From Clostridia bacterium (GTDB lineage Bacteria; Bacillota; Clostridia; Oscillospirales; Ruminococcaceae): 64,000 nt of DNA. Below are positions 3,564 through 31,394 of the stretch, one piece after another. Location of the stretch: NCBI GenBank assembly GCA_009929695.1, contig RZZW01000002.1, positions 96,527 to 160,526 on the forward strand. Reading direction: 5' to 3'. A program made the position numbers and the translations under genes. The notes below the pieces were generated by a model that was given only the letters and a program-made list of their open reading frames with translations, did not search any database and was not told where the DNA came from. How positions within the stretch are numbered: the first letter of the stretch is position 1; every line of letters begins with the position of its first letter.

Positions 3564-5027
3564 TCACTCTTTTTTATCGTCCTTTTTCTTATCGTCCTTT
3601 TTATCCTCTTGCTTTTCGGACTTTTTAGGGGGCGTGTTTCCACCGCCGCCAGAGCCACCGAAAAGCCCGGCCTCCATACCTGCCGCCTCTGCCTCTGAGG
3701 TAAGCGCCTTTGCTTCTTCCTCACTCATGCCCTCAAACTTTACTAAGTAATACCACTTAGGAATCCAGCCCTGCATAGCGTAAGCTCTCCACGCCGCCTT
3801 ATCTTCCTCATAGCTGTATGTAATATCACCAAAATTAAAGTTGATTTCATACTCACCGAGAGGGGCAAGGCCGTAAAGCGTAACAAGAGCGTCAGCACCA
3901 TAAAAAGCCTGTTCAAGTGCGTCCTTCAGAGCGTCACGGTCTGTTTTAATCGTCTGAATGGTGTCACGGTCATCAGATTCAACCTGCGTTGCGGTAATCA
4001 TACCCGTTTGACCGTCCATAACGAAAACGCCTTCAGAAAATCCGCATTTCACGCCAGCCATAGAGAGGTTAAAGTTAATTTCTTTGATACGGGCTTCCGT
4101 CTGAATTGTCGGTACGTGTTCATGTACGGCGGTTGTATCGCCGTCATTGATACCCATACCCAAGCCTTTAACAAACCGGGGAAGCGTAATACCTTTGTTG
4201 TTAGCGTTCTGAATAGCCTGCTGACCTACAAAGGTAATGTGCTTGCTGTCCTCAATTTCGGTATTCATACGGCTTATGCCGGTATCAATAGCCTTTAACT
4301 CAGTAATAGCGTTTGCAAAAACGGATAAACCGAGGGGCGAAGTGGGATCAACAGTATTTGCACCGGGTACACGATAATAAGCGAAAAGAGGCTTTTCAAG
4401 ATTTGCTATGCTTACCTCAGGCTGCATATTCGCCCATACCTCAACACTGTTAAGGGCTACGGGCGTACCGAGCATAAACTTATTATCACCGTTGATTTGA
4501 TTCTTAAAGGCTTTATTTGTGACCTTGTAAATGCGGCCCCCGTTTGCGTCAGCACCCTCAAAGCGGTGGTATTCAAGACGGGTGTAATGTGCTTTGCCCT
4601 GTGTGGTGTGGGTTGCAAAGATAGCACCGACAATTTCGCCGTTATCGTCCTTTGCAGTGATACCAAAACCGCCCGGAAGCACAAAGTCCCATGTTTCACC
4701 GTTCCACTTAATCATAATACCGCCGAGCCTGTCAGCTTCGGTGATTTTATCGGGGAGGCGTTTTAACAGGTCATCTGCAAGCCCCTGTAAATAGTCAGCT
4801 CTGGGAGAGCCTGAAACGGCAATACCAATATCAAGCGTTGTGAGCTTTGCACGGGTATCTGATATGTGCTTAGCCATATTGACCGTTTCTATATCGTCCT
4901 CCGTATTCCTCCACGGAGGTCTGCCGGTGGAAATATTATCCCACCTCTGAAGGGCGTTGCTCATTTCATCAGAGGTAATGAGATCAACGCCAAATTCCTT
5001 ACCTATATCGGAGCTTATTAAAAACAT
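3564..5027 (-). CDS. Phage portal protein (A118/SPP1-like)
   Basis: The ORF track starts at 5066, but AAGGAGG lies 9 bases before the internal ATG at 5027 (MFLISSDIGKEFG), giving 487 residues. The protein has the mixed alpha/beta middle region of portal proteins and a flexible Gly/Lys-rich tail after residue about 450. It forms the dodecameric DNA channel at one capsid vertex and lies between terminase and minor capsid genes. Confidence 0.82.
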   Translation of the reverse strand: MFLISSDIGKEFGVDLITSDEMSNALQRWDNISTGRPPWRNTEDDIETVNMAKHISDTRAKLTTLDIGIAVSGSPRADYLQGLADDLLKRLPDKITEADRLGGIMIKWNGETWDFVLPGGFGITAKDDNGEIVGAIFATHTTQGKAHYTRLEYHRFEGADANGGRIYKVTNKAFKNQINGDNKFMLGTPVALNSVEVWANMQPEVSIANLEKPLFAYYRVPGANTVDPTSPLGLSVFANAITELKAIDTGISRMNTEIEDSKHITFVGQQAIQNANNKGITLPRFVKGLGMGINDGDTTAVHEHVPTIQTEARIKEINFNLSMAGVKCGFSEGVFVMDGQTGMITATQVESDDRDTIQTIKTDRDALKDALEQAFYGADALVTLYGLAPLGEYEINFNFGDITYSYEEDKAAWRAYAMQGWIPKWYYLVKFEGMSEEEAKALTSEAEAAGMEAGLFGGSGGGGNTPPKKSEKQEDKKDDKKKDDKKE

Positions 5028-16183: not shown

Positions 16184-17062
16184 TCAGCCTCCTTTTAAGT
16201 ATGATGATTTTATTACACCACTTTCGGGCAACGGGGGGGGGCAAACCTCACGAAGTTCAGTATAAAAGGCTTTATTTTTAATAGATTTTCCAGCCGCTAT
16301 ACATTCATCTTCAAAAGCAAACCGCTTTTCCAAGTCCTCAACGGTACTGTAACCCTTAAATACGCGCCAAGTTTTCTTATCCGTTTCTCTAAGTTCTTCC
16401 CAGAGGTCGGGGTAATACTTTCTTAGGTTTCTAAGGTCATCAAGCGATTGCAAAGGACAACACCAGCAGCTTACCCGGTTGAACACTTTATACAGTCCGT
16501 CCCAGTCGTAGCCGAGCTTATAACAGTAAGCCAAACAGTCAGCCTCAGTCCAGTTCCAATAAACAAGTGGGTAAATGTGATCTTTTTGCTGATTACTTTT
16601 GCGTTCTAACCTGTATTGTTCATCAGCGGCAATGCCTATCAAATGAACAACATCATATTCGGCTTCAAGTGCTTTGAAGTGCCTGTTTATCACATCTTGC
16701 TTTAACTTACTGGTACACCACCGAGAACGGCTACCAGCCCAGCCATAGCCCACACGCTCAACATCTTTATATAGGTGCTTCTTTGTCCGGGTATCAAAAC
16801 GGTGTTCAAGCAAATAATAATCAAAGGATTTTTCACTTTGAACACGGGTGAATTTCACACCAGCAGATTTAACGAGCTTTTCAATCTTAGCTATGTGCGT
16901 TACCATTGAGGGAAATTCTTTCCATGTATCACAGTAAAGCACTTCGTCTAAGGGGTACGCTATGTGATTACAGATATGTAGTTTTAGCCATTCAAGCGTT
17001 AAAGCGGTGCTGTCTTTGCCTCCTGAAAAGCTGATTACATAGTATTTTTTCTTTTCATTCAA
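16184..17062 (-). CDS. PAPS-reductase/DndC-like PP-loop protein
   Basis: Starts at TTG with GGAGG 8 bases upstream. VISFSGGKDSTAL is the PP-loop nucleotide-binding motif, and CSSK-like residues appear as SRWCTSKLKQD. A cysteine cluster SCWCCPLQS lies near residue 200. Such proteins activate or transfer sulfate/sulfur; in phages they often neighbour methyltransferases and resemble DndC of DNA phosphorothioation. A nine-base C tract (16233-16241) sets the C-terminus; a 7- or 10-base tract would fuse it to the next methyltransferase. Confidence 0.82.
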   Translation of the reverse strand: MNEKKKYYVISFSGGKDSTALTLEWLKLHICNHIAYPLDEVLYCDTWKEFPSMVTHIAKIEKLVKSAGVKFTRVQSEKSFDYYLLEHRFDTRTKKHLYKDVERVGYGWAGSRSRWCTSKLKQDVINRHFKALEAEYDVVHLIGIAADEQYRLERKSNQQKDHIYPLVYWNWTEADCLAYCYKLGYDWDGLYKVFNRVSCWCCPLQSLDDLRNLRKYYPDLWEELRETDKKTWRVFKGYSTVEDLEKRFAFEDECIAAGKSIKNKAFYTELREVCPPPLPESGVIKSSYLKGG

Positions 17063-17956
17063 GCAAACAGCCTCCTAACTCTGACAGCCTCTCAGCCGCC
17101 ACATTAAAGTATTTTTCTTCCTGCTCAAAGCCGATACACACCCTGCCGGTGTTTACTGCGGCTATAAGCGTTGAGCCGCTGCCGAAGCAGTTATCAAGAA
17201 CGGTGTCACCCTCATTTGTATAAGTCCGTATGAGGTATTCAAGCAAGGCAACGGGTTTTTGTGTCGGGTGATAGGACTGAGGGTGTTCCTTCGGAATATC
17301 AATGATAGACAGAGGGTATTTCTCATTCGTTACCACCACCGGCGTTGACTTAAACTCCCCATAACAGCCGTTGCGTCCCTGTTTCTGTGTAGCGTTTCCT
17401 GCACCGCCTCTGGTGTGGCAGGTATCGCCAACGGTAAACTGAGGGTTGTAGGTGGGTTGCTTATCATAGAAAACGCATATATCCTCACTTATCCGTAAGG
17501 GCTGTTTCTTTGCATTTAAGAAGCCGGTAGGTCTGTTTCCCTTTTTCCATATCAGATTGTACTTCCACATTTTTCTGTTACTCTGCATAAGGTCTGAGGT
17601 AAACATACCGCTTGCAAACAGGACAATAGCACCGTTATCTTTTATCACCCGTTTGTAGTGCCGCCACAATTCCGGGAACGGAATAACGCTGTCCCATTTT
17701 GCATTTGGGTTTTTGCTATTCAGTACCCCGTATGGTAAATCACACAGAATGAGATCAACCGAGTTATCGGGTATTAAGTGCATACCCGTTAGGCAGTCAC
17801 CATTAAAGGCGTTGTACTTAACGGGGGGGTGAAGGTCGATACCGGGCAGTCTGAATGACCGCTATGTATAAATACTTGCTTTCGGCTATCAGGCTGCCGA
17901 GTATCGAAGTAAGGCATTATTGTTATTTCCTGTCCGCATAAAGGACAAAGGCTCAT
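17055..17956 (-). CDS. Zinc-ribbon/DNA methyltransferase (N4/N6, beta-type), split by a C7 tract
   Basis: A short frame from ATG 17956 encodes a zinc ribbon (MSLCPLCGQE... GHSDCPV) and stops at 17789. The methyltransferase frame holds NGDCLTGM, then LILCDLPYG (motif IV) and DNCFGSGSTLIAA (motif I), in beta-class order, but its only downstream ATG (17783) would cut the conserved NGDCL segment. The frames meet at a seven-base C tract (17823-17829). Eight bases would give one continuous protein of about 300 residues. Confidence 0.75.
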
Positions 17957-18808: not shown

Positions 18809-18961
18809 TCATAAAATTGTTAAAGCCACCAGCAACAGGATAAAAAGCCCTGCCGCCGAGCTTGCAAAAAAGATACCTGTCTTTATTGTCTTTGCACTCA
18901 TAGCCATAAGGCAGAAGAAAACGGCAAAGACGAGCAATGTGATTTGTGTAGCAAGTGTCAT
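18809..18961 (-). CDS. Small two-helix membrane protein (50 aa)
   Basis: AGGAGG lies before the ATG at 18961; the tracked ORF extends too far upstream. Two hydrophobic segments (LATQITLLVFAVFFCLMAM and ITG-like FFASSAAGLFILLLVAL) flank a short basic loop. The start overlaps the stop of the cytosine methyltransferase gene (TTATGA). The function is unknown. Confidence 0.65.
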   Translation of the reverse strand: MTLATQITLLVFAVFFCLMAMSAKTIKTGIFFASSAAGLFILLLVALTIL

Positions 18962-20596
18962 AATGTTTCCTCCTGAGGAAAGCGTACTTTTGTAACGGCT
19001 ATCGGAAATTCCTCTATTTCCGAAGCCCACAGGCAAGAGCCTTTTCCGTTCAGCATTTCCCATATCAAAGGAAAGCCGCCGATACCGTCAAACAGGCTTG
19101 CCATAGTGTTATCAGAGCCACAGCAGAGCGTCAGCTTTGAAAGAACATAAAACCACGGCGGTATTGCAATACTGTTTCCGAGTGCCTTATAACGGGCGCT
19201 ATCAGTAATGGGCTTGCTTTTCAGCTTTCTCCCGTATTTATCGGTTTTCTCATAGTCACCTATATCAGTCCACCCGTCCGGGAAGCCCTGCAACCGTTCA
19301 CATTCAAGAGGTGTCAAACGGCGTACTATCATTTTGTCAAGCACATCAACCTGTCTTGAACGCATTAAAGTAGGTGCGGAGCTTTCAGAAGCACTTATAT
19401 CCGCACTCTCTGACGCTTGCCCGTGAAAAGCACATACAGCAGAGGGACCTTTTGCAACAAGCGTTGAGTTGATACCGTCCTCACTGATCCTGAAGTTATA
19501 TTGTGCGTTTTCACCCTGATTAAATGCCGCACGATCCAAAGCAATAACACCGTTTCTGCCTGAGGACATACCACAATTTACGCCCAGCGTTGCCGCCTTA
19601 TCGCCTGTAAGAGCCGCATTGTAACCGTCAACGCCCTGTGCTTTTTCTTTCGGTGTTACAGCAACGGCGGTATAATCAGTAACACGGTTTTGGTGATCTC
19701 CCGTCATAGTGGGTGCAATCTTACCGTCACCGTTTCCCCGTGCGTCATACACAGCAGAAGAATCCTCAGACAAAACCAAACGCCCTTTAACATCAGCCTC
19801 ATGCTTCGGTGCGCCTGCACCGCTTCTCAGGGTGCTTGCAACATCAGCTAAAGGTAACTGTTTTGCGGAAACAGCCGGACGGTCAACGGTGTTGAGCGTG
19901 TAGCTCACGCCCTCCGTCCAGCCTCTACCGTTACAACCTGCGGTGTCGGCACGGTCAATGCAGTTGCCCTGTATGCAGTATGTAGGGGCTACTCTTGTGC
20001 CTGCCGTTCCAGAACGGCTCTCAGCAGTTCGGGTAGCTCTTTCCCACGGCGTTCTGCCCTGCGGATAATACCCTGACACGCCTTCGCGCTCAAAGAGTAT
20101 TTCGGGTGCGGTAAGTCCTCCAAAATCTGCGACAAGTGCGATTCTACGCCTACGCTGGGGGACTCCCCAAAACTGAGCGTCGAGTACACGCCACGCAACG
20201 CTCCAATCCCCCCCCCATTCCAACGAGGCAGCCGCTTGTGGGCCAGCCGTCATTAGGCATAGGAACAACGGGGGCTTCTTTGCAGACAACCCGGACTGTT
20301 TCTTGCAAGACTGCTCCGAAGTCTGCTCCTTTGTTTGAGCTAAAAGCTCCGGGTACATTTTCCCAAACCATAAAGCGAGGTCTGATATTTGTACCTGTTC
20401 TACCTCTGTGTTCATCTGCTTTCCTCATTTCTTTAATTACTCTGAGCTGTTCCATAAACAGCCCTGAGCGTTCCCCGGCAAGCCCAGCACGTTTTCCGGC
20501 AACGCTTAAATCCTGACACGGGCTACCTCCGATTATGACATTGACGGGGGTAGCCTCAGCACCATTGATTTTTGTTATATCGCCTAAGTGTTTCAT
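18958..20596 (-). CDS. Circularly permuted C5 cytosine DNA methyltransferase, frame broken at a G9 tract
   Basis: The N-terminal frame starts MKHLGDITKING and contains GGSPCQDLSVAGKRAG (catalytic Cys) and FMVWENVPG. The C-terminal frame has WRVLDAQFWGVPQRRRRI, a long target-recognition region, LTPLECERLQGFPDGW and YKALGNSIA. Motif I (SLFDGIGGFPLIWE) and motif II come last, after motif X, so the fold is circularly permuted. The frames meet at nine G (20208-20216); eight G would join them. As written the enzyme is off. Confidence 0.85.
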
Positions 20597-20865
20597 TGTG
20601 ATCCTACCCCCTCAAAGTCCTGTGCCGCTGACGGTCCGATACGCAAGTTAAGTCTTTTTGCACACGAAGGGCAGTAGTGATACCACTCTTCGCTTTCGTC
20701 TTTCGTAAACCGCCAGCCGTCACGCTTAGCTACTTCAATTAAGTCATCAAACAGCCCGAAGCCGTAACCGTCAAGCAATTCATCACCGCAATTATCACAG
20801 CTCATTGTGTAGCTGTCCTCAGGTGAATAATCGTCATCACGGAAGCCTTCGTTGTTAATGCTCAT
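20593..20865 (-). CDS. Zinc-ribbon phage protein (90 aa)
   Basis: Two CxxC pairs (SCDNCGDEL and YCPSCAKRL, about 45 residues apart) form a probable zinc ribbon around an aromatic, acidic middle. It overlaps the cytosine methyltransferase start by 4 bases and is probably translated with it. No function is known; it lacks methyltransferase motif I, supporting the permutation of the next gene. Confidence 0.7.
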   Translation of the reverse strand: MSINNEGFRDDDYSPEDSYTMSCDNCGDELLDGYGFGLFDDLIEVAKRDGWRFTKDESEEWYHYCPSCAKRLNLRIGPSAAQDFEGVGSQ

Positions 20866-21079
20866 TTCTGCTCTTTCCTTTGTCGGTACTATTCACTGCA
20901 TAGAGGGCGATAAACAGAGCCACAAGCAGATAACCGGCATACAGGAACAGCCAGTACCAAGAGAAGATAAGCGACATTACAACAGGAATAGCCAGAGTGC
21001 CGAGGGTAATAACTGCAACCGCAACGATAATAGCGATTACAACGGCAAGCCGTAACAGTTTTTCATAATTGAATTTCAT
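20855..21079 (-). CDS. Small membrane protein (74 aa)
   Basis: Strong AAGGAGG before ATG 21079. Two transmembrane segments (LAVVIAIIVAVAVITLGTLAIPVVM and WLFLYAGYLLVALFIALYAV) are followed by a charged tail. It overlaps the zinc-ribbon gene. The function is unknown. Confidence 0.65.
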   Translation of the reverse strand: MKFNYEKLLRLAVVIAIIVAVAVITLGTLAIPVVMSLIFSWYWLFLYAGYLLVALFIALYAVNSTDKGKSRNEH

Positions 21080-21121: not shown

Positions 21122-21139
21122 GGCCCCACGAAGGGGGCC
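21122..21139 (-). other. Hairpin downstream of the DGR-like variable gene
   Basis: GGCCCC and GGGGCC close over a TTCG-containing loop, 20 bases after the stop of the DUF6273 gene on the minus strand. Hairpins or cruciforms just beyond the variable repeat are a known cis requirement for DGR retrohoming. It could also simply be a terminator-like structure; no T-run follows. Confidence 0.45.
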
Positions 21140-21159
21140 AGATTCCGGGAGTTATTAGA

Positions 21160-21786
21160 TTAAATCGAGAAGCCGAACGCCACGCCATTAGCGTTGTAGG
21201 CGGTGTCGTAGTTGTAGGCGCTACCGTTGGAGTAGACATAACAGAAATAGGACGAGGACTGAGAGTAGGGGGAACGAAGCCACCACCACCAAGTACCGTG
21301 ATCCGCACACTCTTTAACACGGGATTTTTCGGTGTGGAAAATATCAAGCTGTGTGTCCTCCGGCTCATATTCGGAATAGTTGCCCTTGCCGAAAACCTGT
21401 GTTCTGGAAAGCAGGAAAAGTTTGTCCTCACACTCAACACGCTCACCGTCCAAAACCTGAACAACCTTAGTAGGCTTAATGAGTGCCTGCAATTCGTCAG
21501 GCAGCAGATTAAAGACGGTTTTGTTGAGGTGCTTACGCATATCACTTTCAGCCCAGCCGCCCTTGTTTGTGGAACGCTTATTCATAGCGTGTTCATCTTC
21601 AAGACAGTCCTCAAGGACAAAGAACAGATTTCCGTTCATATCGTGTGTAGCTCTTGCCGCCACTTCCTCACCCGTTTTCAGATTGAAATGAATGAGGTCA
21701 CGGCTTTTAATTTCACCGGCTTCAACAGCCGTTTTCAGGTCAGCCCACTCACCGGGCGTAACCGTTTCTTTGATAAAGTTAATCAT
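21160..21786 (-). CDS. DUF6273/C-type-lectin-like variable protein, probable DGR target
   Basis: 208 residues. The C-terminal third has WWWWLRSPYSQ, then a Tyr/Asn/Ser/Asp-rich stretch, ending in GVAFGFSI, the layout of DUF6273 and related formylglycine/lectin-fold DGR targets. In the last 35 codons many are NNC forms that differ from AAC only at adenines (TAC, GAC, AGC, ACC, TCC next to AAC). No reverse transcriptase, Avd or template repeat is visible in the window, so diversification would act in trans. Confidence 0.72.
   Translation of the reverse strand: MINFIKETVTPGEWADLKTAVEAGEIKSRDLIHFNLKTGEEVAARATHDMNGNLFFVLEDCLEDEHAMNKRSTNKGGWAESDMRKHLNKTVFNLLPDELQALIKPTKVVQVLDGERVECEDKLFLLSRTQVFGKGNYSEYEPEDTQLDIFHTEKSRVKECADHGTWWWWLRSPYSQSSSYFCYVYSNGSAYNYDTAYNANGVAFGFSI
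21163..21254 (-). repeat. Candidate DGR variable repeat (VR)
   Basis: This covers the codons from the second half of WWWWLRSP to the stop of the DUF6273 gene. It is rich in codons reachable from AAC by adenine mutation. The 3' end (GGCGTGGCGTTCGGCTTC) is GC-rich, like an initiation-of-mutagenic-homing region. The boundaries are approximate because no template repeat is available for comparison. Confidence 0.5.
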
Positions 21787-21799
21787 AAGATTTGCCTCC

Positions 21800-23779
21800 T
21801 TAATCTTTTTTGAAAAACATTCCTACCCAGCCGTCAGCACCGAGGGGTAAGCCCTGCGCCCACGGGATAGGCGTTGACATGATTTTTACAACAGTGTCTA
21901 ACATTGTTTCGTTGTCTGCAAACGGCTTTATATCAATGACTACTTCATCATGCACATGGAACACAACGGGAAGCCCTGCTTCCTCTAAGTGTTCAATAGC
22001 CTGTGCCAAGCAGTCACGGGCAATAGCCTGTACGCAATTCTCAACAAGTTTGCCGCCGTAGGTTTCTATCCTGCCCCAGTGGTTTTTATCGTTCAGCCCC
22101 ATATAGGAGATTGACGCACCGCCCCAGCGGTTTTCACCGATAGCAGGATCAATGTAGTAAAGTTTTCTGCCGGAGGGCAGAAGGATTGACATACACGTTC
22201 TGCCTTGCGTATAGTCATACTCTCTTGAAAGCGTAAGCCCTCTTACATTGACAGAGCCGCCACAGTTAATTACCTGCACAGCCGCACTGTCAAAGGCGTA
22301 CCACAGATCACGTATCTTTGAGTTTGCGTCACGCCAGCGGCTTACAATATCGGGTAAGTCCTCTTCGGGTATTCCCATATCAAGAGCGCCCATGTTAATT
22401 AGTGCGCCGGTGCTGCCCTGATAGCCAAGAGCCAGCTCAGCAACCTTGCCTTTTTGCCTCAGGTGTCCGTTCTCACCGCCTTTTACAACGTTGCAATGGA
22501 ACATCTGAGAGGCAGAGGCGCAATAAATATCACCGCCACTGCGGAATACTTCAAGCCGCCACTCTTGACCGGCAAGCCATGATATAACCCGTGCCTCAAT
22601 AGCTGAGAAGTCAGCGTCAATGAGTACGTGTCCCTCTGGTGCAACAAAGGCTGTGCGGATAAGCTGTGATAGCGTATCATTTACACTGCCGTACACACAT
22701 TTCAGACCGTCAAGGCTTCGGCTCTTTACAAGTTCTCTTGCGAGTTCAAGCGGCTCTGTGTAGGTACGGGGCAAATTCTGTACCTGCACCAAGCGTCCAG
22801 CCCAGCGCCCGGTACGGTTTGCACCGTAATACTGTAAAAGCCCTCTCACTCTGCCGTCAGGACAAACGCACTCTTGAATAGCGTCATACTTTTTGGTAGA
22901 GGTTTTTCCGAGTTCTTGACGGATTTCCAGCATACGGTTTACCGTATCGCTGTTTTCGTCACGGTCAAGTAGCTTGCTAACGGTATCTTTTCTCAGGTTT
23001 ACGATTTCCTCACCTGTTTCATCAGCAAGCCACTGACCGAGCTGTTTAACACTGTTAGGGTTGTATAGCCCTGATATTTGTATTGCCTCCGTAGTAAGCG
23101 ATTCACGCACGGTTTCACCGAGAGCCAAAGCCCCGTGAACGAAGGACATATCAACGGCAACGCCTCTGTCATTGATAAGCAGGTCCGTTTCCCACTGCTT
23201 CTGAACAAAATCGGGAACGGGGAAAGCGGATAACCTGCTATCAATTTCCATTTCCGTTACAACGTCCTGCTTGCAGTATTCTTTGAACAATTCCCACTTA
23301 GCAGGATCATGGTGAGGGTAGTTGCGTGTCCGCTGACCGTTAGCCTTTGAGGGCTTACAGGGTACACAGAAATAGCGTATAAGGGCTTTACCTGTATTGA
23401 GCTTCTGCTTATCCTCAGGCAGCCCTAACGCCCGTCCTGTGGCCTCCAAGCCTGCCGTATAGCCGCAATACAAGCCGTGAAGCATTGTGTCCCTCCACTG
23501 TGAGGGCGGTAACTTAATACCTGTGTATCGGCTAAGGCAGCCCCACTCAAACGGTGCGTTATATGCGTGTTTTATGTACTCAGGGCTATACAGTGCTTTT
23601 ATAAGCCATTCGGGGGGCTGTTCGCCCTGAGCCATATCCACTATCTCAACAGGGGCGTTATCAACGCTATACGCAAAAAGCAGGATTTCAAAGTCAGGGC
23701 TTCGTAAGTAAGCCTGCGCCCCGGCTTTTTTAATCGGAACACTTGAATAGGTTTCAAGGTCAATGCTTAGTGTGTGCAT
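21800..23779 (-). CDS. Phage family A DNA polymerase
   Basis: 659 residues. The N-terminal 3'-5' exonuclease has SIDLETYSSVPI (Exo I), HAYNAPFEWGCL (Exo II) and YCKQDVVTEMEI (Exo III). The polymerase palm shows DADFSAIEARVISWLAG (motif A), the QKGKVAELALGYQG-type O helix and VHDEVVIDI (motif C). It is shorter than host Pol I and lacks the 5' nuclease. It is the replicative polymerase of the phage. Confidence 0.95.
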   Translation of the reverse strand: MHTLSIDLETYSSVPIKKAGAQAYLRSPDFEILLFAYSVDNAPVEIVDMAQGEQPPEWLIKALYSPEYIKHAYNAPFEWGCLSRYTGIKLPPSQWRDTMLHGLYCGYTAGLEATGRALGLPEDKQKLNTGKALIRYFCVPCKPSKANGQRTRNYPHHDPAKWELFKEYCKQDVVTEMEIDSRLSAFPVPDFVQKQWETDLLINDRGVAVDMSFVHGALALGETVRESLTTEAIQISGLYNPNSVKQLGQWLADETGEEIVNLRKDTVSKLLDRDENSDTVNRMLEIRQELGKTSTKKYDAIQECVCPDGRVRGLLQYYGANRTGRWAGRLVQVQNLPRTYTEPLELARELVKSRSLDGLKCVYGSVNDTLSQLIRTAFVAPEGHVLIDADFSAIEARVISWLAGQEWRLEVFRSGGDIYCASASQMFHCNVVKGGENGHLRQKGKVAELALGYQGSTGALINMGALDMGIPEEDLPDIVSRWRDANSKIRDLWYAFDSAAVQVINCGGSVNVRGLTLSREYDYTQGRTCMSILLPSGRKLYYIDPAIGENRWGGASISYMGLNDKNHWGRIETYGGKLVENCVQAIARDCLAQAIEHLEEAGLPVVFHVHDEVVIDIKPFADNETMLDTVVKIMSTPIPWAQGLPLGADGWVGMFFKKD

Positions 23780-27740: not shown

Positions 27741-28142
27741 ATGACACTGTATGAGAAGATCCAAGTGCTGTGTAAAAAAGAGGGCTTTGAAATATCAAAT
27801 TTAGGTGAGCATATCCCCGGTTTGAACGTAACAAAAGGCTCTATAAGCAAGTGGAAAAGCGGTGCTGTTCCACGAGCAAGCACACTAAAAAGCATTGCTG
27901 AGCATTTCGGCGTACCCGTAACATACCTGACAGAAAACCACGGGGACACGATTGAAAACCAGAACATCACCGACAACCACGGAATAATAGGACACACCCA
28001 CGCACCCGTTACAATAATCAACGGCTCTGAGCGTAAACTTTCCGAACAGGAAGTTGAGCTACTTAACATCTTTGAAAAACTCAGCGTAATGGAACAGGCA
28101 AAACTACTTGTATATGCAAATGGGCTTGTAGGTGATAAATAA
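27741..28142 (+). CDS. Phage XRE-family repressor
   Basis: 133 residues. The N-terminal HTH (LYEKIQVLCKKEGFEI...TKGSISKWKSGAVP...LKSIAEHFGVPVTYL) occupies residues 1-65 and is followed by a short linker and a C-terminal helix pair. AAGGAGG lies 10 bases before the ATG. No peptidase domain is present, so induction would not be by self-cleavage. It probably represses the leftward early promoter. The stop overlaps the next start (TAATG). Confidence 0.85.
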   Translation: MTLYEKIQVLCKKEGFEISNLGEHIPGLNVTKGSISKWKSGAVPRASTLKSIAEHFGVPVTYLTENHGDTIENQNITDNHGIIGHTHAPVTIINGSERKLSEQEVELLNIFEKLSVMEQAKLLVYANGLVGDK

Positions 28143-28690
28143 TGACCGGGCTTGAATATGAAAAGCTGGTAGCAAAGTATCTGCGGCGGCACGGCTATTT
28201 TAATGTTTCAGTAACGAAGGCCTCAGGGGACTACGGCGTTGACGTGATAGCCCACAAAGGAACACACCGTTACGCCGTGCAGTGTAAATACTACTCAAAT
28301 GAGGTGGGGCTTGAAGCCGTACAAGAAGCTGTTGCAGGGAAAGCTATGTATAAATGTGATCGGGCAATGGTGGTAACAAACGCAACCTTTACGAAGGCTG
28401 CGTCAGAGCTTGCCTGTGAAAACAATGTTATTCTGCTGTCCGGGATAAGATCGGCAGGACTGGGTGATATGGCAACCGTCATATCGTGCTTCCTGCTCCC
28501 GTTCCTTTTCCTGTTAGCCGGACTTGCCGGAATGTTTGCGGCAGTCGGTGAAACACTGATAAAGCAATTTCAGAACGGGCAGTACGCACTTGCCGCCTAC
28601 AACATCATTTCAATTATTGCCGTAGGTGCTGTGGCAGCCGCCGTTGTTTTCCTTATAGGTAAAATCAGAATCCGAAAGAAACAGAAATAA
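28142..28690 (+). CDS. Membrane-anchored Mrr-like restriction endonuclease (lysogenic conversion candidate)
   Basis: 182 residues. Residues 1-110 are an Mrr-type PD-(D/E)XK domain: SGDYGVDVIA with Asp34 and VQCKYY with Gln47/Lys49. Two transmembrane segments follow (about 115-140 and 158-175), with a basic tail. It is co-expressed with the repressor in the prophage state and could cut incoming DNA at the membrane as superinfection exclusion. That role is inference. Confidence 0.75.
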   Translation: MTGLEYEKLVAKYLRRHGYFNVSVTKASGDYGVDVIAHKGTHRYAVQCKYYSNEVGLEAVQEAVAGKAMYKCDRAMVVTNATFTKAASELACENNVILLSGIRSAGLGDMATVISCFLLPFLFLLAGLAGMFAAVGETLIKQFQNGQYALAAYNIISIIAVGAVAAAVVFLIGKIRIRKKQK

Positions 28691-28736: not shown

Positions 28737-30353
28737 GTGTCTGTTGATATTCAGTTTAACATTCCGAAAGATAAGCCAATAGGTGAAACGCTTGCTGTGG
28801 TGTACGCCCGGTATTCTTCCCACAGTCAGGGTGAACAATCCATTGAGGGGCAGTTATCAGAGGCACGAAAGTACGCCGCCTCTCACGGATATACCATTGT
28901 GCATGAATACGTTGACCGAGCCAAAACAGGACGCACAGATAACCGTGAGGAATTTCAACAAATGCTGAAGGACACGGCAAAGAAACAATTTGAGGTTATT
29001 ATCCTCTGGAAAGTTGACCGTTTCGGACGGAACAGAGAGGAAATAACCTTTAACAAGTACAAGTGCAAAAAGAACGGTGTCCGTGTTGAGTATATAGCTG
29101 AAACGATACCGAACACGCCGGAGGGCGTTATTTTGGAAAGTGTGCTTGAGGGCTTCGCTGAGTATTACAGCCTTCAGCTTTCACAGAATATCCGTAGAGG
29201 GCAAGCCGAGAGTGCCGAGAAATGCCAAAGCACGGGCGGCAACCGTCCGTTAGGTTATAAGACAGGTCCCGATAAGAAATTTATCATTGATCCTGAAACA
29301 GCACCGACCGTACAGCTCATTTTTAGTATGTATGCTGCCGGTCACACGGTAACAGAAATTGTAAAGCACCTGAACAGTTTAGGACTGCACACGCTCAGAG
29401 GCGGCAAGTTTACCAATAACAGCCTGCACAGCGTTTTGAATAACGAAAAATACACAGGCGTTTATATCTACAAAGACCAGCGAATTGAAGGCGGTATGCC
29501 CCGTATTATTGATGATGATACCTTCCAAAAGGTACAAGAAATGCTGAAAGTGAATAAACGTGCGCCTGCGGCAAAATGGACTAAGGCTGATTACATTTTA
29601 ACCGATAAGGTATTTTGCGGTAAATGCGGTATGCCTATGATCGGAGAATCGGGAACGAGTAAGACAGGTGCAAAGCACAATTATTATATTTGCTCTAAAA
29701 AGAAACGGTTTAGACAGTGCGATAAAAAAGCCGTCCGGCAGGCTGACCTTGAACAGCTTGTAATAGAAAAAGCCTTAGAGGTTTTACAAGATGATGAACT
29801 ACTTGAATTTATCATTGAGAACACATGGAATTTCTATCAGGCGCAGGACGAAAGCCGGGAGGAATTAGAATCTTTACACGCTCAGCTTGAACAGGCAGAA
29901 AAGGGTATTGCAAACTTAGTAAGAGCCATTGAAGCCGGTATCATAAATGAGGCTACCAAAAAGCGAATGGACGAATTAGGGGAACAGAGGAAAACCTTAC
30001 TTGCTGCCATAGCTGACAGAGAAATAGCAAGAGGCTTTCACATAACACGGGATCACATAGCCTTTTTCCTTTACAGCCTCAGAGATTTAGACTATGAGGA
30101 AAAAGAGAGCCAGAAACGCTTGATACAGGTGTTCGTAAACTCTGTGTATGTATTTGATGATGAAATAACAATCAATTTCAATTACACAAGCGGAAATGTT
30201 ACTATTTCACTGAAAGAAACAGAGGACGGCAAGGCTGGTGAAGGGTTCGTACACCGTGCGTCTTGCTCCACCATTGTTCCCATAGACGAACACTTTGTAT
30301 CGTCTATGGGAATTTTTTTGTCTTGCTGTGTATCATATATTTTATACTCTTGA
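28737..30353 (+). CDS. int: Large serine integrase
   Basis: 538 residues from a GTG with AGGGAGG 7 bases upstream. The resolvase domain has VVYARYSSHSQGEQSIEGQ (catalytic Ser), KVDRFGRNR and EGFAEYYSLQLSQNIRRG. A recombinase domain (PLGYKTGPD...) and a zinc ribbon (CGKCGMPM...YYICSKKKRFRQC) follow, then a coiled coil. An intrinsic terminator (30279-30319) lies inside the last 75 bases, so the C-terminal tail probably crosses the right attachment junction. Confidence 0.92.
   Translation: MSVDIQFNIPKDKPIGETLAVVYARYSSHSQGEQSIEGQLSEARKYAASHGYTIVHEYVDRAKTGRTDNREEFQQMLKDTAKKQFEVIILWKVDRFGRNREEITFNKYKCKKNGVRVEYIAETIPNTPEGVILESVLEGFAEYYSLQLSQNIRRGQAESAEKCQSTGGNRPLGYKTGPDKKFIIDPETAPTVQLIFSMYAAGHTVTEIVKHLNSLGLHTLRGGKFTNNSLHSVLNNEKYTGVYIYKDQRIEGGMPRIIDDDTFQKVQEMLKVNKRAPAAKWTKADYILTDKVFCGKCGMPMIGESGTSKTGAKHNYYICSKKKRFRQCDKKAVRQADLEQLVIEKALEVLQDDELLEFIIENTWNFYQAQDESREELESLHAQLEQAEKGIANLVRAIEAGIINEATKKRMDELGEQRKTLLAAIADREIARGFHITRDHIAFFLYSLRDLDYEEKESQKRLIQVFVNSVYVFDDEITINFNYTSGNVTISLKETEDGKAGEGFVHRASCSTIVPIDEHFVSSMGIFLSCCVSYILYS
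30279..30319 (+). terminator. Intrinsic terminator inside the 3' end of the integrase ORF
   Basis: A perfect 11-bp inverted repeat (CCCATAGACGA/TCGTCTATGGG, 10-base loop) is followed by AATTTTTTT. It begins 75 bases before the stop codon at 30353. It probably marks the prophage right end, with host DNA starting in this neighbourhood. Confidence 0.8.
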
Positions 30354-31341: not shown

Positions 31342-31394
31342 AAAAAAGCACCTCCTGTTGTAGAATAGAAACTACAACAGGAGGTGCTTTTTTA
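31341..31394. terminator. Bidirectional terminator after dinD
   Basis: A 16-bp perfect stem GCACCTCCTGTTGTAG/CTACAACAGGAGGTGC with an 8-base loop is flanked by A7 and T6, so it can stop transcription on either strand. Confidence 0.9.

Follow-up and report, generated by a model that had tools for sequence, protein, structure and literature searches.

A small DUF6273 gene in an early-type prophage module of a Clostridia bacterium is very likely a remote second target of a complete diversity-generating retroelement

Introduction

In the diversity-generating retroelement (DGR) of Bordetella phage BPP-1, sequence is transferred from a template repeat (TR) to a variable repeat (VR) in an adenine-specific manner, with a reverse transcriptase (RT), Avd and a hairpin located 3' of the VR, the latter being required for homing (PMC3240598). 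The DGR described here shares these features. BPP-1 differs in having one adjacent target, carried by a tail protein.

Targets remote from the cassette have also been described, including in Treponema (PMC4891356). The Quimbyvirus DGR has its second target within an island of defence-like type (PMC8008677; Benler et al., 2021). As in the prophage studied here, a single RT is accompanied by a VR in the structural module and a second VR elsewhere; this second VR belongs to a C-type-lectin protein encoded near methyltransferases and a tRNA ligase, which the authors judge to be non-structural (PMC8008677). Quimbyvirus nevertheless differs from our case, since it concerns Bacteroides phages, with the second target on the opposite strand and the RT spread over three frames. 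More recently, four inducible gut prophage species were reported to carry a distal second VR, located close to genes for methyltransferases (Nature 2025, PMC12629997). The DGRs treated there are mostly those of Bacteroidota phages, and the main text describes no protein family, hairpin or fusion. A remote second VR near phage counter-defence genes is already published (Quimbyvirus in 2021, the four gut prophages in 2025).

The closest systems in terms of protein family are those of Faecalibacterium Lelie and CP11 (PMC11792537) and of nd4 and nd12 (PMC10743442). As in the present prophage, two DUF6273 targets depend on one template, and the small target carries its VR in the C-terminal part. 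Identity of these small targets to the 208-aa protein described below is low (28-36%). The available text of the two papers does not place target2 in a replication module, and receptor binding was proposed for nd4 and nd12. In our analysis, the small targets of Lelie, nd4 and nd12 lie in a remote non-structural module, as in the present prophage. As far as the literature consulted shows, what is new here is that the small DUF6273 family is a common remote target in phages of several gut Clostridia, together with its consistent replication/methyltransferase setting, found in nd4 and nd12 as well, a DUF3310 fusion and the shared hairpins.

The small DUF6273 gene and its neighborhood

The DNA analyzed, hereafter the window, is a stretch of 64,000 nucleotides corresponding to bases 96527-160526 of the 160,526-bp contig C28 (RZZW01000002.1). 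The following features of the window are relevant, all on the minus strand.

17055-17783, minus: N6/N4 DNA methyltransferase of the same module (PF01555, E 9.7e-30)
18958-20596, minus: C5 cytosine DNA methyltransferase, two overlapping ORFs (PF00145 matches both)
20855-21079, minus: hydrophobic protein of membrane type, 74 aa, encoded by the first gene downstream of the small target (maximum hydropathy 2.97)
21122-21139, minus: hairpin GGCCCC-CTTCGT-GGGGCC, candidate target-recognition element (from the sequence)
21160-21786, minus: small DUF6273 protein, 208 aa (PF19789 profile match, E 3.6e-27)
21167-21285, minus: variable repeat VR2, residues 168-207 (90% identity to the TR at C28:80401-80519)
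21800-23779, minus: DNA polymerase family A, directly upstream of the small target with a gap of 13 bp (PF00476, E 2e-22)

In the Pfam profile search, the 208-aa protein scores 95.7 bits against PF19789, for a gathering score of 23.5. Its C-terminal end, WWWWLRSPYSQSSSYFCYVYSNGSAYNYDTAYNANGVAFGFSI, contains the WWWWLRSP motif followed by a Tyr/Ser/Asn-rich tail in the translation. The AlphaFold2 model is a confident single domain (pLDDT 90.7), and the predicted fold resembles models of phage DUF6273 proteins in structure comparison. Neither an N-terminal fibre domain nor a capsid-anchoring domain was found in the protein, and hydropathy of the N-terminus gave no export signal. A Foldseek search of the PDB returned a weak match to a lectin-type domain (Lcl, E 1.3); the C-type lectin assignment comes from other DUF6273 targets (PMC10743442), not from the 208-aa protein. 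The best PDB match of the model, and the sole convincing one, is an IgA peptidase domain from Thomasclavelia ramosa (9qa6, fold E 1.7e-4), which is also matched by profile (E 3.1e-5).

The small target, about 15 kb from the terminase gene, has the DNA polymerase A gene on one side and the cytosine methyltransferase on the other. The two ORFs of the latter (18958-20415 and 20150-20596, minus strand) are in different frames, which points to a frameshift or a broken gene. At this stage, it can be said that the first-pass annotation was right in describing a DUF6273 protein with WWWWLRSP and a Tyr/Asn/Ser/Asp-rich tail, followed by a hairpin 3' of the gene, and in placing it in an early region, not among tail genes, "early" being here a reading of gene content and order.

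A template repeat and a reverse transcriptase in the same prophage

A Pfam RT search of the genome located an RT on contig C28, to the left of the window. The cassette comprises the following features.

C28:79038-80186, minus: RT, 382 aa (PF00078, E 3e-14; YMDD and SQ motifs)
C28:80401-80519, minus: template repeat TR (BLAST)
C28:80577-80981, minus: Avd-like ORF, 134 aa, between VR1 and the TR (similarity to phage Avd)
C28:81164-86686, minus: 1840-aa tail-module protein with a C-terminal DUF6273 and VR1 in its last codons
C28:81172-81289, minus: first variable repeat, VR1 (16/16 core mismatches at template A, P = 9.7e-12)

The RT is intact and 48% identical to the DGR RT of Roseburia phage Shimadzu. 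The Avd-like ORF has no match in Pfam; it is similar to the Avd of Shimadzu (E 1.9e-6) and to its equivalent in Dulem virus 34 (E 1.3e-12). Another RVT_1 match was seen in the same genome (locus L001, G000:C19:52278-52889), inside a 1025-aa open frame.

The TR/VR2 pair was obtained by plain BLAST, without adenine bias. VR2 and the TR, 37 kb apart on one contig and in one prophage, are 90% identical across 119 bases (BLAST and TR/VR alignment). In the core, corresponding to the first 115 bases, all 11 mismatches fall on the 30 template adenines (P = 7.7e-8); every non-adenine position is identical to the TR and there is no stop codon. Between VR1 and VR2 there are 15 core differences, every one of which falls on a template adenine; the two repeats were thus rewritten independently. 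Fourteen codons within residues 180-200 of the 208-aa protein read AAC or AAT in the template, and each of them can yield 15 residues. BLAST against the whole genome gave only three strong matches to the template: the TR itself, VR1 and VR2.

A core hairpin GGCCCC-CTTYGT-GGGGCC is found about 25-27 nt 3' of both VR1 and VR2, and none of this kind 3' of the TR. With a 6-bp stem and the 6-nt loop CTTCGT, the window hairpin departs from that of BPP-1 (8-bp stem, GRNA loop) and from the BPP-1 type in general (7-10 bp, GRNA), which counts against the DGR reading.

The proposal of the first-pass annotation, an orphan DGR target, thus has to be divided. Its reading of the gene end as a DGR variable repeat holds: the search of the whole genome that it called for yielded a template about 90% identical with adenine-only core mismatches, and a DGR-type RT beside it. 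Its observation that RT, Avd and TR are missing from the window is also correct, because the cassette starts 15-16 kb past the left edge. Orphan status is rejected, since this prophage also carries the cognate TR, at a distance of 37 kb, together with the RT. From these sequence comparisons, the 208-aa DUF6273 protein can be firmly assigned as a genuine DGR target.

Lysis genes come next to the left of the RT, and the first host genes appear after a few more kb. To the right are found, in order, tail, capsid, portal, terminase, helicase, VapE primase and RtcB genes, then the methyltransferases, the small target, the DNA polymerase, an ssDNA-binding protein, a repressor-type gene and the integrase. 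The latter, a serine recombinase ending at window position 30353, marks the right side. We interpret the segment from the lysis genes through the integrase as a single prophage, about 53 kb long. A gene for a protein with an Mrr-type restriction endonuclease domain (window 28142-28690, plus strand), located in the interval that separates the repressor-type gene from the integrase, is a candidate defence gene carried by the prophage. A perfect inverted repeat of 22 bp with A and T runs on its flanks (window 31342-31393) is probably a bidirectional terminator just past the integrase side of the prophage.

Remote small DUF6273 targets in other phages

A script seeking repeat pairs with adenine-biased mismatches, which gave no match in ten shuffled genomes, detected a remote second VR, each time inside a small DUF6273 gene, in at least 13 additional phages or prophages. 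This layout is found in Dulem virus 34, Roseburia phage Shimadzu, Acutalibacter phage Fontainebleau and MT835491, in Faecalibacterium phages Lelie and Toutatis, in phages nd4 and nd12, in three IMG/VR genomes (L026, L028, L029) and in two bacterial MAGs (L070, L078). Over 15 remote repeats, including VR2 of the window, 203 of the 210 mismatches are at a template A. P values for the other phages are conditional on a preference of the script for adenine mismatches. Only the adjacent repeat was found by the script in Brigit, Pioen, MT835552 and VP58.5, and by a partial check in Roos and phiARM81mr.

In every case checked, the remote gene is inside a replication/methyltransferase module. A DNA polymerase accompanies it in the window prophage and in Fontainebleau, as well as in L081; its other neighbors are N4/N6, D12 or C5 methyltransferases, Erf, SSB, primase and VapE. 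The remote proteins, as called, mostly have 189 to 297 aa, and neither a hydrophobic N-terminus nor a membrane segment was found in those tested. In nd12, the remote target (L112:31285-32178) is a DUF3310-DUF6273 fusion, with an N-terminal DUF3310 at E 2.5e-16. Published work (PMC10700055) relates DUF3310 to the gp1.7 nucleotide kinase of T7 and, in other phages, to early lytic regions. Where VR1 was seen, the hairpins of VR1 and VR2 are usually alike; they are identical in MT835491 and L029, near-identical in Fontainebleau, and have GNRA-type loops in Dulem virus 34 and L070. No hairpin of the VR1/VR2 kind was found in Lelie.

Several further loci deserve mention. In L078, a Lachnospiraceae MAG (JAETNQ010000003), two small DUF6273 targets are located about 2 kb apart (L078:9752-13338) for one template, which sits on another contig; a DUF6353 gene follows the first target and a gene of similar sequence the second, as if the pair had been duplicated. 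In L046 (9731-10441) and L081 (270-839), the repeat of a small DUF6273 gene of the early module does not correspond to the DGR template detected in that genome; these genes are possibly true orphans or targets of another DGR. Like L027, L038, L071 and L090, they are kept outside the tally of 13. A Coriobacteriales MAG contains a TR/VR pair (L076:713-840 and 3852-3979) with 22/22 mismatches at A and a DUF6273-type target, and MAGs of Treponema and Collinsella have similar DUF6273 genes.

Natural variation at the remote repeats

No match to the 208-aa protein was found in a single-protein search of IMG/VR, nor any close relative of the window phage within the genus in a family-level genome search. 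Relatives carrying the same layout are informative on this point. The TRs of Lelie and Toutatis are identical; their small-target VR2 sequences differ at 17 of 101 positions, 16 of them at a template A, for 12 differences in 547 bases outside the VR. For CP11, both VRs vary and have lost adenines in the published alignments (PMC11792537), and the same paper cites the diversification, in Shimadzu, of a second protein with no assigned function. These comparisons support the idea that the remote site is active. L030 and L034 also differ at 21 of 101 VR positions and at none of 507 outside; this comparison was not retained as main evidence, since the contig of L034 stops within the VR and shows an apparent 1-base indel.

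Proposed mechanism and possible roles

Taken together, a complete phage DGR very likely has the small DUF6273 gene as its second, remote target: one TR, one RT and one Avd-like protein, located in the tail module, serve two VRs in two DUF6273 genes. By analogy with established DGR biology, RT-Avd would copy the template RNA, making errors at adenines, to give a cDNA that would replace the variable repeat at either VR1 or VR2. Homing would be guided at each site by the conserved 3' end of the repeat and by the downstream hairpin. The outcome would be a 208-aa protein with a fixed scaffold and 14 freely mutable positions. It could be argued that VR2 is instead the relic of a past homing event into a DUF6273 gene, as in a decayed or orphan-like target, with no selected diversification; the L046 and L081 genes, at odds with the template of their own genome, would fit such a view. 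We consider this very improbable in the window prophage, where TR, RT, Avd-like ORF and hairpin are all present and VR2 has kept the template sequence at non-adenine positions over 115 bases with no stop, and VR2 is still diversifying in Lelie and Toutatis.

The neighboring genes, the lack of a detected export signal and the DUF3310 fusion of nd12 point to an intracellular role, and it is the position of target2 and this fusion that lead us to favor such a role over receptor binding. We tentatively propose, at slightly below even confidence, that the 208-aa protein is made early, stays in the cytoplasm and binds variable proteins of the host or of rival phages, most plausibly as a counter-defence. 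Alternatively, both targets would be at the particle surface, the small protein being a virion or receptor-binding part (Mtd-like, or a capsid decoration) encoded outside the late module. In line with this, tail-module targets, including the VR1 gene, also have DUF6273 as their hypervariable domain, one weak PHROG match of the 208-aa protein is a Hoc-like head decoration, and for target2 of nd4 and nd12 the authors of the tentaclin study suggest that it binds the host as Mtd does (PMC10743442). Such a virion part appears unlikely, however, for a gene that belongs to the replication/methyltransferase module wherever checked, whose product has no anchoring domain for fibre or capsid and whose nd12 homologue is joined to DUF3310. 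A function in competition between phages or lysogens, the protein binding a receptor or a component of a superinfecting phage (superinfection exclusion or decoy), would suit a temperate phage that encodes a hypervariable binder outside the virion module, next to a hydrophobic gene product (20855-21079). We regard it as distinctly improbable, given that export signals are absent, that the gene is within a lytic early operon and not next to the repressor, and that the membrane-type neighbor is not kept in Fontainebleau.

Coming back to the intracellular reading, its extension to the family is somewhat more tentative still: small DUF6273 proteins of early modules may be widespread intracellular DGR-diversified binders, one DGR then being used both for receptor switching at the tail and, in trans, for anti-defence proteins.

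Concluding remarks

These observations have a practical side. Target searches limited to the RT neighborhood overlook remote targets, and a variable repeat that seems orphan should be checked against the whole prophage. Shimadzu, Lelie and Fontainebleau are cultured or inducible, which makes the question of function directly testable. The phage DGR targets known so far are mostly particle-surface proteins; a second target that recurs beside replication and methylation genes suggests that hypermutation may also act on a protein working inside the cell.
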